Source: Polynucleobacter asymbioticus (GTDB lineage Bacteria > Pseudomonadota > Gammaproteobacteria > Burkholderiales > Burkholderiaceae). Taken from it: a stretch of 64,000 bases of DNA. Below, in pieces: positions 3,722 through 8,323 of this stretch. The first letter of the stretch is position 1; every line of letters begins with the position of its first letter. The translations under genes were made by a program, and so were the position numbers. The notes under the pieces were generated by a model. It searched no databases and had not been told where the DNA came from. It saw only the letters and a program-made list of their open reading frames with translations. The stretch spans positions 186,001 to 250,000 of the forward strand of contig NZ_CP061297.1 in assembly GCF_018687575.1 (NCBI RefSeq), in the 5' to 3' direction.

Positions 3722-4906
3722 ATGTTGAATTGGGAAGAAGAAGTTGCACCGGCACTAGCGAAAGCGGGTCTCGCACAGCAACCAGTTGTGGCTGAGCCGC
3801 AACGCCCACAAGCAGATGAGGTCGCAATTGCACCTCAAGTTGTGGCACCTGCAGCAACTGCGAGTGCAGCGTTATCTGGTGGCGCAGCTTTGCGCGTCAA
3901 CGCTGCCGATAAGCGTGTGATTAATGCCAAGACTGACGTAAATCAGCTGGTTCCATTTAAATATAAGTGGGCTTGGGAGAAATATCTGGCCGGTTGCGCA
4001 AACCATTGGATGCCACAAGAGATCAATATGAATCGCGATATCGCGCTTTGGAAGGATCCTAATGGTTTAACTGAAGATGAGCGTCGCATTATTAAGCGCA
4101 ACCTCGGTTTCTTTACAACTGCAGATTCTTTAGCGGCCAACAACATTGTTTTGGGCACTTATCGCCACATTACTGCCCCAGAATGCCGTCAATACCTATT
4201 GCGCCAAGCGTTTGAGGAGGCAATTCATACTCACGCCTATCAATATATTGTCGAATCTTTGGGTTTAGATCAGAGCGAAATCTTTAATGCGTACAACGAA
4301 ATTGAGTCTATTCGCGCCAAAGATCAGTTCTTAATTCCCTTTATTGATGTGTTGACTGATCCCAATTTCAAAACCGGGACACTAGAAACTGATCAAATGT
4401 TGCTTAAATCATTGATCGTTTTTGCCTGCGTAATGGAAGGATTATTCTTTTATGTTGGTTTTACGCAAATACTTGCAATGGGTCGTCAAAACAAAATGAC
4501 GGGTGCTGCTGAGCAGTATCAATACATCCTTCGCGATGAGTCTATGCATTGCAATTTTGGTATCGATTTAATTAATCAAATCAAGCTGGAGAACCCGCAG
4601 TTATGGACTTCTGCGTTCAAAGATGAGATCAAAGCCATCTTCGAAAAAGCAGTGGAATTAGAGTACCGTTATGCAGAGGATACGATGCCTCGTGGAGTGC
4701 TCGGATTGAACGCGCCGATGTTCAAAGGGTACCTAAGATACATCTGTAATCGTAGATGTTTGCAAATAGGACTTGACGCGATGTTCCCAAATGAAGAGAA
4801 TCCATTCCCATGGATGTCAGAAATGATTGATCTGAAAAAAGAGAGAAACTTTTTTGAGACACGCGTTATTGAGTATCAAACTGGCGGTGCGCTAAGTTGG
4901 GAATAA
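3722..4906 (+). CDS. nrdB: class Ia ribonucleotide reductase, beta (radical-generating) subunit
   Basis: Houses the di-iron centre and the stable tyrosyl radical passed to NrdA. Expected ligands are present: Asp135, Glu166, His169, Glu239, Glu273 and His276, with the radical Tyr at 173 in [10 protein letters not shown]. The protein has 394 residues; the first 65 or so form an Ala/Pro/Val-rich extension before the conserved ferritin-like fold. The start at 3722 has AGGAG at 3711-3715. It shares the nrdA promoter region and is followed by a good terminator. Confidence 0.97.
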
Positions 4907-4997
4907 GTAGTTAATTAGAAAGCGCATGGCCGGCTAAATAGGAGATTAGACGGTTGGATAGTTTTAAAAGTCAGCAAAACCAGACTCAAATCCGAAA

Positions 4998-5013
4998 ACC
5001 CTTGTCCAAGGGT
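4998..5013. repeat. small hairpin downstream of nrdB
   Basis: Six-base arms accctt and aagggt around the loop gtcc. There is no T-tract next to it, so it is not a classical terminator; it could stabilise the 3' end of the nrdAB message. Confidence 0.35.
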
Positions 5014-5052
5014 GTCTGGACTACTCTCTCTATTTTTTCCAGCAAATTTAAG

Positions 5053-5085
5053 AAGCCGTTGTCCTTTGGGGCCACGGCTTTTTTT
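5053..5085 (+). terminator. Rho-independent terminator of nrdAB
   Basis: Stem AAGCCGT (5053-5059) and ACGGCTT (5074-5080), with a loop of 14 bases, runs straight into a T-tract ending at 5085. Confidence 0.8.
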
Positions 5086-5240
5086 CCAGGATTCATTAGC
5101 GTGCAGCACTTAGCATCAAGCCGCGCGCCGATGAATGGCTCGCTCGTCGGCTCCAATCGGTTGCAAAACCAGGCGGAAATGAATGGTCGGGTCTTCTTAA
5201 TCGGTAGTTTGTACTAATCCTCACGTGAAGGAGCATTACT
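5086..5240 (+). other. non-coding leader region before the histone H1-like gene
   Basis: With 4907-5085 this makes a 334-base gene-free stretch; the upstream half holds the hairpin and terminator listed separately. In 5086-5240 I see no convincing promoter hexamers. GCCGA (5127-5131) can pair with TCGGC (5147-5151), and overlapping CCGAT (5128-5132) can pair with ATCGG (5156-5160), so two exclusive short hairpins are possible. A ribosome binding site AAGGAG lies about 8 bases before the ATG at 5241. An open frame from a TTG at 4954 crosses the terminator and has no recognisable protein, so I do not call it. Confidence 0.4.
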
Positions 5241-5555
5241 ATGGCAATCGCCAAGAAGAAAGTTGCTGCAAAGAAACCAGCTGCGAAGAAAAAAGTAGCT
5301 GCTAAGAAGCCTGCTGCTAAAAAAGCTGCTGCTAAGAAGCCTGCTGCGAAGAAAAAAGTAGCTGCTAAGAAGCCTGCTGCTAAGAAAGTAGCTAAGAAGA
5401 AGCCTGCTGCTAAAAAAGCTGCTGCTAAGAAGCCTGCTGCTAAAAAAGTAGCTAAAAAGAAGCCTGCTGCTAAGAAAGTAGCTAAAAAAGCTGCTGCTAA
5501 GAAGCCTGCTGCTAAAAAAGTAGCTAAGAAGCGTGTAGCTGCAAAAAAAAAGTAA
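5241..5555 (+). CDS. histone H1-like DNA-binding protein (KPAAKK repeats), zero-frame product
   Basis: A 104-residue, extremely basic protein made almost wholly of Lys, Ala, Pro and Val in repeats such as AAKKPAAKK and KVAKK, as in the H1-like nucleoid proteins of betaproteobacteria and the eukaryotic H1 tail. It probably binds DNA through charge and affects nucleoid packing. The start has a strong ribosome binding site. The frame ends at TAA 5553-5555 immediately after AAA AAA AAG, yet the same repeat pattern continues in the -1 frame to 5677, ending in WPFPTGTRP. So either this short form is one of two products made by frameshifting, or the gene carries a one-base deletion in its A9 run. 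Repeat number is expected to vary between strains. Confidence 0.85.
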   Translation: MAIAKKKVAAKKPAAKKKVAAKKPAAKKAAAKKPAAKKKVAAKKPAAKKVAKKKPAAKKAAAKKPAAKKVAKKKPAAKKVAKKAAAKKPAAKKVAKKRVAAKKK

Positions 5556-5581
5556 GTAAGCCTGCTGCGAAGAAAGCGGGC
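5546..5581 (+). promoter_or_regulatory. candidate programmed -1 ribosomal frameshift signal
   Basis: Slippery heptamer A_AAA_AAG at 5546-5552, in the correct phase relative to the zero frame, is followed by a seven-base spacer (5553-5559) that begins with the zero-frame stop TAA, then by a stem GCCTGC (5560-5565) / GCGGGC (5576-5581) with one G-T wobble and a ten-base loop. This is the same heptamer as in E. coli dnaX, and the spacer length is in the range that stimulates -1 frameshifting. It is the only in-phase A_AAA_AAG in the gene despite dozens of Lys codons. There is no strong upstream Shine-Dalgarno-like stimulator. Function is inferred. Confidence 0.5.
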
Positions 5582-5677
5582 AAAGCTGTAAAAAAGCCCG
5601 TGGCTAAAAAAGCTGCCGCTTCAACAACGTTGAATCCTGCTGCTGCTTGGCCCTTCCCAACTGGCACACGCCCATAA
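5552..5677 (+). CDS. -1 frame continuation of the histone H1-like protein (C-terminal tail)
   Basis: Forty-one codons in the -1 frame read VSKPAAKKAGKAVKK..., then a short neutral tail TTLNPAAAWPFPTGTRP and TAA at 5675-5677. Composition and repeat units match the upstream part exactly, and the WPFPTG ending resembles the C-terminus I recall for betaproteobacterial H1-like proteins. Joined at the heptamer the product would have 145 residues. No start codon or ribosome binding site precedes it, so it can only be made by frameshifting, by transcript slippage, or as the relic of a frameshift mutation or sequencing error. The terminator at 5704-5732 follows it, consistent with one transcription unit. 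Confidence 0.7.
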   Translation, partial: VSKPAAKKAGKAVKKPVAKKAAASTTLNPAAAWPFPTGTRP

Positions 5678-5703
5678 GCTCTGCTTGTAGGCGGGTGAAG
5701 TTC

Positions 5704-5732
5704 AAAGGGATCTCTCGCGAGATCCCTTTTTT
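5704..5732 (+). terminator. Rho-independent terminator of the histone H1-like gene
   Basis: Perfect 11-base stem AAAGGGATCTC / GAGATCCCTTT with loop TCGC and a following T-tract up to 5732. It sits 26 bases before the stop of the convergent kinase gene. Confidence 0.9.
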
Positions 5733-5758
5733 ATTGGCACTTCCGAGAATGATTGGGT

Positions 5759-6718
5759 TTAGAGGGCAAATCCAAAAGCGGTTTTGAATTGAGCGGCGAT
5801 TTTATCTTTGCTCATTTGGTGATTTTGTGGTCCCTGATGGGTAATTTTGATTGAACCCATCAAGCTAGCTAAGCGGCCTGTGGTTTCCCAATCCATACCA
5901 TTTTCCAATCCAAACAATAATCCACCTCGGAATGCGTCACCGCAACCAGTTGGATCAACTACTTTTGAGGCTGGTACTGGTGGAATTGCAATACATTTGC
6001 CATCAAAGTAGATATCTGCACCTTCAGCACCCTTGGTCACAATCAAGGCTTTCACTCTTTCAGCCACTTTTGCCAAGCTCAGCCCCGTCCTTTGAGAAAG
6101 CATTTCGCCTTCATAGTCATTTACGGCGAGATAGCTCGCAATGTCTACGAGTTCTAGAAGTTCTGGACCGTTAAACATCGGCAAGCCTTGGCCTGGATCA
6201 AATACAAATGGAATGCCCGCCTCCGCTAGTTGATGGCAGTGCTCCCACATTCCTTGGCGACCATCTGGGGCAACGATGCCAAACTTTGCTGCACCTTTTG
6301 CATTTTTGCTACGTTCAGCTACTACCGCAGAAACTTGATTTAGATGAGATTCACCCATGGCACCTGGGTGAAAAGCAGTAATTTGATTGTTTGCTTGATC
6401 GGTGGTGATCATGGCTTGAGCGGTAAATGCCTGCTCAATTTGACGAATGTGCGTTGCATCAATCTTGAGTTGCTTGAGGCGATCAAGGTAAGGCGCTGCA
6501 TCACCGCCCACTGTGGCCATGATGATGGGATCGCCACCAAGTAGATTCAGGTTGTAAGCGATATTGCCTGCGCAACCACCAAATTCACGGCGCATTGTAG
6601 GAACTAGGAAGGCGACATTCAGGATATGAATCTGCTCTGGCAGGATTTGATCAGCAAATTTGCCTTCAAAGTTCATGATGGTGTCGTAAGCAATAGAACC
6701 ACAGATCAAGCTAGACAT
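5759..6718 (-). CDS. PfkB-family carbohydrate/nucleoside kinase (adenosine kinase or ribokinase-like)
   Basis: ATP-dependent kinase of the ribokinase superfamily, 319 residues. Seen: the N-terminal signature GGCAGNIAYNL (from residue 47) and the C-terminal DPTGCGDAF (255-263), whose Asp261 is the catalytic base. Similar proteins are often annotated as adenosine kinase, but the substrate cannot be read from sequence. It is the last gene of the minus-strand series, 57 bases after prmA. The ATG at 6718 has only a weak ribosome binding site, so translation may depend on the upstream gene. Confidence 0.85.
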   Translation of the reverse strand: MSSLICGSIAYDTIMNFEGKFADQILPEQIHILNVAFLVPTMRREFGGCAGNIAYNLNLLGGDPIIMATVGGDAAPYLDRLKQLKIDATHIRQIEQAFTAQAMITTDQANNQITAFHPGAMGESHLNQVSAVVAERSKNAKGAAKFGIVAPDGRQGMWEHCHQLAEAGIPFVFDPGQGLPMFNGPELLELVDIASYLAVNDYEGEMLSQRTGLSLAKVAERVKALIVTKGAEGADIYFDGKCIAIPPVPASKVVDPTGCGDAFRGGLLFGLENGMDWETTGRLASLMGSIKITHQGPQNHQMSKDKIAAQFKTAFGFAL

Positions 6719-6775: not shown

Positions 6776-8323
6776 CTACTTTTCGGGGTAAAAAATTCGG
6801 ACGCGATAGCCCGCAGCATTTTGTGGATGAGAAATTGGGAGTTCAGAGGAAAAAATTTCACCAGAAGGCGCACCTTGGCGTAAAAAATCAGGATGTGATT
6901 CTTGCCAAGTTCTTGGCAACCATTCTTGCGGAGTAAATTGAATGGTTTTGATCTCCGATTCTTCTGCATCAGTGAGAGAAATTTCTAAATTCGGGAATAA
7001 AACAGCTAAGGCAAGACGATTTTGTATTTCAACTTGCAATACAAATTGATTTGAAGCGTTTTTAAGGCCCTCTCGCGCGTTTTCAGGCGAAAGAGTGACT
7101 GAAGTTATTTTCCAAGCGGCAAAATCGCTTAGAGGGCGATCTACGCACCCTAGTGCACGACATAGTTGTTCATCTAACTTCTGCAAAAGAGAAAAGGCAC
7201 TGCTTGCAATCGGAGAAGAGCTGCCATCAACCCGTGTTGCTAATGTCGGCAGTAGAGAATTTCTAGAGAGGTGCTCGCCAAAAAACAGGAGCAAGAGTAA
7301 AAAAAGACCAAGAAAAATTAATTTAAGACTTTTTTTTTGAGCCGGCACTGAGATATCTGTGTTTTTGTCGGTCAGACTTACTTTGTTGCCCTGTGTAGCT
7401 AGCGTGCCGTGCAAACAGACCCAACCTTCACTTTCTTTCCAAACAGAAAGGTTTAACCATTGGCTGTAGGTGGCAATGACTTCCTCTGCTTGGCGCGCAA
7501 GCACGCCTGAGAGAACAATTTTTCCACCGGGGCGCATCTTGTTTACCAATGCTGGGGCTAAAACCTGCAGTGGATTGGCCAAGATATTGGCCATCACGAT
7601 GTCGTATTTAGTTTCTGCTGCGAGTTCTGGTGCATTTTCGTTAGGTAGGACAAAACGAATGCTTGTATTGTTGATTTCTGCATTGCTGCGCGCCGCAACC
7701 ATAGCTTGTGGATCAATATCAGTGCCTACCACTGGTTTGCATCCCAGTTTTGCAGCGGCAATAGCCAGAATTCCAGATCCACAACCGTAATCGAGCAAGC
7801 TTTGGTTCGCAAGCTGGGTATTTTGTTCAAGCCAAAGAAGGCAAAGGTGTGTAGTCGGGTGACTACCGGTTCCAAATGCTAAGCCTGGGTCGACTGCCAA
7901 GCAAATTGCGTTGGGGTCAGTAGGTGCTTCATGCCAGGAGGGTACTACCCAAATACGCTCACCAATCTGAATCGGCGCAAATTGGCTTTGGGTTAGGCGA
8001 ACCCAATCTTGTTCTTCAACAATCTTTTCTTGGGGGGCTGGGAGATTGAATCCCGCCTCCTTCAGAGCAGCAAGAAGCTCGGGGATAAAGTTCACCGCAT
8101 CCGAATCATCGATCTCTGGATTAAATAATGCGGTTACAGAAGAGCGATCCCAGGCCTGAACTTCAGGTGAGAGTCCTGGCTCGCCATAGAGCGGGTTTTC
8201 ATCATAGCCACCCGCAGCATCATCTTCCACCGTGACCGAGAGTGCGCCCACTTCCAATAAGGCATCACCCAAAGGCTCTGCAATCTCTGCTGGGACCGTG
8301 AAAACGAGTTCACGATAGGACAT
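6776..8323 (-). CDS. prmA: PrmA ribosomal protein L11 methyltransferase fused to a DUF3426-like membrane domain
   Basis: Residues 1-310 are a full PrmA: an N-terminal substrate domain, the SAM-binding loop DYGCGSG (178-184) and NILANPL (246-252); it trimethylates L11 in the cytoplasm. The same frame then continues through a linker to a hydrophobic segment LIFLGLFLLLLLFF (about 335-348) and a C-terminal domain of about 165 residues resembling DUF3426. In related bacteria I expect a separate gene here, coding for a zinc-ribbon (MJ0042) plus DUF3426 protein; here the zinc ribbon is absent. No stop, ATG or ribosome binding site marks a second gene at the junction. Total 515 residues against about 300 for PrmA. 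The start at 8323 has GGAG seven bases upstream. Confidence 0.93.
   Translation of the reverse strand: MSYRELVFTVPAEIAEPLGDALLEVGALSVTVEDDAAGGYDENPLYGEPGLSPEVQAWDRSSVTALFNPEIDDSDAVNFIPELLAALKEAGFNLPAPQEKIVEEQDWVRLTQSQFAPIQIGERIWVVPSWHEAPTDPNAICLAVDPGLAFGTGSHPTTHLCLLWLEQNTQLANQSLLDYGCGSGILAIAAAKLGCKPVVGTDIDPQAMVAARSNAEINNTSIRFVLPNENAPELAAETKYDIVMANILANPLQVLAPALVNKMRPGGKIVLSGVLARQAEEVIATYSQWLNLSVWKESEGWVCLHGTLATQGNKVSLTDKNTDISVPAQKKSLKLIFLGLFLLLLLFFGEHLSRNSLLPTLATRVDGSSSPIASSAFSLLQKLDEQLCRALGCVDRPLSDFAAWKITSVTLSPENAREGLKNASNQFVLQVEIQNRLALAVLFPNLEISLTDAEESEIKTIQFTPQEWLPRTWQESHPDFLRQGAPSGEIFSSELPISHPQNAAGYRVRIFYPEK

Follow-up and report, generated by a model that had tools for sequence, protein, structure and literature searches.

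The closest described systems for the locus considered here are E. coli dnaX and the insertion sequences, in which –1 frameshifting takes place on the heptamer A_AAA_AAG in the presence of a single tRNA-Lys with the anticodon UUU. Combined with a stimulator, A_AAA_AAG ranks with the most efficient motifs in E. coli (PMC4066793), and this efficiency is credited to tRNA-Lys UUU (PMC4066793; PMC5009743). Frameshift structures usually begin 5–8 nt downstream, and a stimulatory structure is not present in every prokaryotic case (PMC4066793). Shifting yields the shorter of the two products in E. coli dnaX, while in some other dnaX genes a stop codon lies directly past the site and the shift gives the longer one (PMC5009743). 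Concerning the proteins, KPAA repeats like those treated here occur in AlgP and PhaF of Pseudomonas; AlgP is associated with polyphosphate granules, peptides from its C-terminus bind DNA, and the word “frameshift” is absent from that text (PMC9239181). The NCBIfam family NF038053 (hist_H1_lk_Burk) combines K/A/P repeats with the C-terminus ...LNPAAAWPFPTGxRP. An earlier, sequence-only reading of the DNA analysed here knew of no described frameshifted bacterial H1 protein, and likewise the literature searched showed no case of frameshifting in nucleoid proteins of bacteria, H1-like or other.

The window, a stretch of 64,000 nt of Polynucleobacter asymbioticus DNA, lies inside a complete contig of 1.84 Mb and carries an H1-like gene between an upstream gene that we take to be nrdB (3722–4906, +) and a downstream gene presumably coding for a PfkB-type sugar kinase (5759–6718, –), by which the nearest named records belong to Polynucleobacter. 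A Shine-Dalgarno (SD)-like AAGGAG motif at 5228–5233 (+) stands 7 nt 5′ of the ATG, and the zero-frame ORF (5241–5555, +) encodes a product of 104 residues made of K/A/P repeats, with the terminal codons GCA AAA AAA AAG TAA. This product matches Pfam HC2 (PF07382) with 48.3 bits (cut-off 40) and, taken alone, reaches 37.3 bits with NF038053, below the cut-off of 80, which an in-frame relative (L104/L168) passes with 83.8 bits. The family-typical C-terminus (...LNPAAAWPFPTGTRP) is found in the –1 frame and not in the zero frame. As the sequence-only reading had described, the zero frame ends in A_AAA_AAG followed directly by TAA (A9 run 5543–5551, heptamer 5546–5552, stop 5553–5555, all +), the –1 frame carries on for 41 codons to a WPFPTGTRP end, and a GC-rich stem-loop follows seven bases past the heptamer, folded by RNAfold as a 7-bp stem (5560–5566 with 5575–5581). 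The extension, VSKPAAKK...LNPAAAWPFPTGTRP (5552–5677, +), consists of 41 new codons spanning 5552–5674 and of a TAA at 5675–5677; the –1 frame here reads K-VSKPAAKKAGKAVKKPVAKKAAASTTLNPAAAWPFPTGTRP-stop, and the extension would form the C-terminus of a 145-residue long form. Past the long frame, the hairpin scan placed an intrinsic-terminator-like hairpin with a T-tail at 5704–5729 (+), two terminator-like sites being counted in the stretch scanned against a shuffled mean of 1.0; no promoter-like site was found in 4900–5770. Three further segments of the window’s genome (G000:C1:489031-489264, 787734-787831 and 1109571-1109639) resemble the repeats of the H1-like gene.

The locus shares with E. 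coli dnaX and the insertion sequences both the A_AAA_AAG heptamer and the single tRNA-Lys UUU: among the 37 tRNA genes found in the genome, the only tRNA-Lys has the anticodon TTT (UUU). The candidate stem, 7 nt downstream, falls within the usual 5–8 nt of known –1 sites. Unlike in E. coli dnaX, the stop adjoins the heptamer, so that the long form needs the shift, as in the dnaX genes in which shifting gives the longer product. The site also differs from the dnaX and insertion sequence systems in its host, an H1-like gene, in having no SD-like element that we could see, and in a stem without covariation support; an SD-like stimulator was rejected as a candidate, the upstream sequence being variable and none being recognized by eye. 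In the family search, those of the listed matches outside the genus that extend to the C-terminus are in one frame, whereas here the C-terminus requires a shift, and AlgP differs from the H1-like protein in its N-terminal helical domain.

The survey of the genus covered 121 Polynucleobacter genomes, sampled from a larger group, of which 117 gave a kinase match; the stretches adjoining that match were read in 115 of these 117 loci, G056 and G102 being left out for their short kinase pieces. A tail is present in 113 of the 115 loci, L182 and L197, at contig ends, showing none; 95 of the 113 are split between two frames, 16 are in frame and two are in-frame pieces at a contig end (the junctions of L142, L154, L167 and L023 were set by hand and are counted here). 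An in-phase start codon lies inside the contig in 88 of the split loci; six are cut upstream, yet their K/A-rich frame is in phase, and one (L143) is out of phase. All three elements, the heptamer, the stop next to it and the –1 tail, are kept in 94 of the 113 loci. The 80 named genome records, fetched separately and covering largely the species of the genus survey, comprise 74 split loci, three in frame, one in-frame piece and two without tail. A K/A-rich frame of at least 20 codons leads in phase into the heptamer and stop in 71 of these 74, the exceptions being L102 (cut by a contig end), L045 (mis-set through an additional A in its tail) and L076 (whose heptamer is out of phase). In L023/L045 the A9 junction is unchanged and one further A occurs later in the tail, near the contig start, either as an error or as a second break. 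An identical break at the identical place in 95 of 113 tail-bearing loci can, on this comparison, be taken to exclude chance. The sequence-only reading had named relatives with one uninterrupted frame as evidence against it; such relatives exist as a minority, 18 of the 113 loci against the 95 split ones.

In 94 of the 95 split loci, the window included, A_AAA_AAG, a heptamer of the X_XXY_YYZ form, stands in the zero frame and is directly followed by a stop, TAA in 93 and TAG in one (L175). The A-run at the site measures A9 in 88 loci and A8 or more in 93. L135, L145 and L148 have A8 with a T before it, and L154 (AGA AAA AAG TAA) and L175 have A6, all of them retaining heptamer, stop and –1 tail, while the run of L166 is A10, with GAA replacing GCA. 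Heptamer, stop and –1 tail are kept in these loci and the length of the run is not (A6, A8, A9, A10); the heptamer is what slipping by the ribosome requires, and a long run is what slipping by the polymerase requires. L175 (also L111), split and with a TAG stop after its A6 heptamer, is ambiguous because another run, A10, lies 5 nt upstream, which leaves L154 as the one clear A6 locus of the genus survey. L143 (G103) and L076 have A8 after GC, which puts the heptamer out of phase, so that A_AAA_AAG cannot serve there; their upstream frame runs to a second TAA, and the tail, in the +1 frame, is still open.

As a background set, the window has 58 ORFs with a length of 120 aa or more, the H1-like gene itself being too short to be among them; they contain four in-frame A_AAA_AAG against a codon-shuffled mean of 2.9, and none of the 58 ends in A_AAA_AAG and a stop. 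Another in-frame A_AAA_AAG is missing from 82 of the 95 split genes, a set that includes truncated genes and the out-of-phase L143, and GCA precedes 13 of 217 internal AAA_AAG, compared with 382 of 3051 Ala codons overall; these counts point weakly to an avoidance of further heptamers in the H1-like genes. Besides the A9 of the site, the window has one other run of A or T that reaches nine or more. Elsewhere in the window, a single ORF at 6776–8323 (–) joins what we take to be a PrmA-like methyltransferase to a C-terminal part that includes a membrane-like segment through a linker containing a C-A9-GT run (T9 at 7330 on the + strand), and the distance from its GCGSG motif to the stop ranges from 320 to 359 residues (bins) in 49 named loci with full flanks, being 336 in the window.

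The tail bears the marks of a coding sequence. Among 34 unique 41-codon tails, pairwise differences in the –1 frame are 2853 synonymous and 2634 nonsynonymous, the corresponding figures for the two remaining frames being 615/4728 and 637/4780; a synonymous excess is thus confined to the –1 frame, and by these counts the tail evolves as a –1-frame protein. At the same time, codons 1–17 of the tail vary little even at synonymous positions: in 52 genomes their mean majority-codon fraction is 0.982, while the kinase of the same genomes has a mean of 0.656 and 0.890 in its top 17-codon window, the kinase being an imperfect control because the codon bias of the H1-like gene differs from its own. VSKP..KK.G is matched by 60 genomes (named records and window), and the 52 used are those in which the motif search also located the kinase, which it did not in the other eight (it failed at 13 of the 130 loci; another search found 130 of 130). 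The start of the H1-like gene, by comparison, varies, its per-codon fraction ranging from 0.51 to 1.0 over 50 genomes. The Ala codon GCG, used 13 times in 3051 in zero-frame ORFs, makes up 266 of 1092 in the tails (94 tails, L023 dropped) and clusters at codons 5 and 8 of the tail, where it is the usual choice and which lie in the loop and the 3′ arm of the candidate stem, and also at codon 16 in 42- and 38-codon tails. Taken together, this pattern indicates that the 5′ part of the tail is constrained beyond the protein. A separate start for the tail was considered and rejected: the –1 ORF of the window (from 5528) has no ATG, its sole GTG and TTG (5600 and 5630) standing 16 and 26 codons inside the tail; a GTG at codon 16 is present in 31 of 36 41-codon tails and in three of 31 42-codon tails, and the LNP that goes with the TTG is missing from the shortest tails seen.

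In the RNAfold prediction, the 73-nt stretch folds at –22.8 kcal/mol (z –2.09 against shuffles), and six of 200 shuffles fold at least as well. Two mutually exclusive stems are available, stem A (5560–5581, +), formed by the 7-bp pairing given above, and stem B (5576–5601, +), which pairs 5576–5581 with 5596–5601. In an alignment of 32 of the 49 unique 65-mers, from which the more divergent ones were left out, 96.0% of the cells are paired in stem A, with no two-sided change, and 97.9% in stem B, with one two-sided change (L116), neither value being above shuffles; the stem arms hardly vary among loci, and the 5′ arm GCCTGC stands at +7 in 82 of the 95 split loci. Compared with synonymous nulls, folding is moderately better on average: the mean z is –0.89 over 48 unique stretches, and in 84 tails the mean z is –1.4 and the median p 0.07, with p < 0.05 in 25%, the sequences of both sets being related and non-independent. 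The fold is weak in some clades; the twelve weakest tails range from p 0.31 to 0.87 and include L170, L171, L174, L175, L178 and L143. The stem is damaged in L143, whose heptamer is also out of phase, and not in L076. We regard stem A as likely and as a plausible candidate for the stimulator.

The distribution of the split in the phylogeny suggests how it may have arisen. The family search gave a match in 128 of 150 genomes, and outside the genus each of the listed matches that extend to the C-terminus is free of internal stops. In the kinase tree the six deepest members of the genus are in frame, and the sequence at the site is GC-A10-GTAGTT in L192, L194, L195, L196 and L198 (among the deepest, not L191) and also in L168. 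The loss of one A from GC-A10-GTAG gives GCA AAA AAA AAG TAG, and as deep single-frame relatives carry A10, the site probably arose in this way. A clade of 94 tips (total branch length 12.4) contains 90 split loci, two in frame and two without tail; by our count, one gain and five losses fit the kinase tree as well as three gains and three losses do, and under both the clade begins split. Its in-frame tips, L097 and L264, retain the tail and are not returns to A10. The in-frame states of the crown, as we read them, differ from each other: L149 (L264) has A7, L158 (L097) one additional A ahead of its run, L168 A10, and L173 and the L180 group another repeat arrangement. Some of the one-frame lineages are probably returns from the split. 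These patterns suggest that the split is old and has been maintained by selection in the genus. Since one-frame relatives from further genera of the family have the C-terminal motif, the protein was probably long at first, and the short form would be the later innovation.

The conserved site, the –1-frame selection on the tail and the additional synonymous constraint support the view of the sequence-only reading, a programmed –1 frameshift yielding forms of 104 and 145 residues. To a conserved programmed –1 ribosomal frameshift in the Burkholderiaceae-type H1-like gene of Polynucleobacter we assign a probability of about 0.8. At GCA_AAA_AAA_AAG_TAA, two copies of tRNA-Lys (UUU) would re-pair one base back, from AAA AAG to AAA AAA, perhaps aided by the stop codon next to the heptamer and by the GC-rich RNA structure that begins 7 nt beyond it. 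Without slipping, ribosomes would terminate at UAA and release the all-basic short form, while those that slip would give the long form with the conserved ...WPFPTGTRP end of the family. That the sole tRNA-Lys is UUU, that the motif is efficient in E. coli and that dnaX offers a precedent make ribosomal –1 frameshifting the most likely route; the slipping, its rate, the need for both forms and their action in a set ratio are inferences. Transcriptional slippage might add to the long form in the A9 species.

Other explanations account for parts of these data. Errors in sequencing or assembly are common in homopolymers, and the further A in the tail of L023/L045 may be one, but a true A10 with a single frame is refuted as a general explanation, and practically negligible in the comparison, as the break recurs in 95 of 113 genus loci and 74 of 80 named records, A6 and T-A8 variants occur, and A10 is read in the single-frame deep relatives. 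The single missing A (A9 for A10), with which the sequence-only reading had accounted for the break without recoding, accordingly fails as an error and survives as the probable evolutionary origin. It is also very improbable that the gene is decaying, with only the short form made and the tail a remnant: the short form still matches HC2 and a few loci have drifted (L143 and L076 are out of phase, L023 is broken again), whereas over the 94-tip clade and its branch length of 12.4 the tail has stayed open under –1-frame selection, synonymous constraint lies beside the site, and the in-frame tips L097 and L264 retain the tail.

If RNA polymerase slipped on A9, some mRNAs would carry A10 and read into the tail with no ribosomal shift. 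Bacterial runs of nine A or T are reported to slip, and in Buchnera and Blochmannia poly(A) rescue likewise bridges a one-base A-run indel during expression (PMC5009743); the prevalence of A9 (88 of 95 split genes, with A8 or more in 93) agrees with such a mechanism. However, the endosymbiont rescue is transcriptional and belongs to reduced genomes, whereas here heptamer, stop and RNA context are kept and the run length varies, down to A6 in L154/L175 and T-A8 in L135/L145/L148, and slippage by the polymerase requires neither an adjacent stop nor downstream synonymous constraint; as the sole route it seems unlikely. A ribosomal shift could also act only as a saviour, the long form alone mattering and a fixed one-base deletion being tolerated as slipping is efficient enough. 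This idea agrees with an origin in which A10 lost one A, and also with the one-frame lineages, part of which are probably returns; we consider it doubtful, though well within reach, and its weight overlaps that of the two-product frameshift because the mechanism is shared. A long A-run should mutate readily, yet L097 and L264 in the 94-tip clade are not A10 returns, and stop and RNA context are kept; these observations suggest selection on the split itself.

If the programmed frameshift does yield both products, the tailed and tail-less forms may differ in partner or in polyphosphate or nucleoid binding, which is a guess. As a further, rather improbable conjecture, the deletion may have been captured as a recoding switch across most of the genus, with tRNA-Lys slipping setting the ratio of tailed to tail-less protein, so that tRNA charging or modification (lysine supply, growth state) could tune the packing of the nucleoid or of polyphosphate. 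With single-frame outgroups available next to the split clade, and several exceptions in frame, the passage of a deletion into a kept recoding signal can be followed in stages here. If cells do produce the long form, the real C-terminus of the H1-like protein would escape ordinary ORF calling in most Polynucleobacter genomes.
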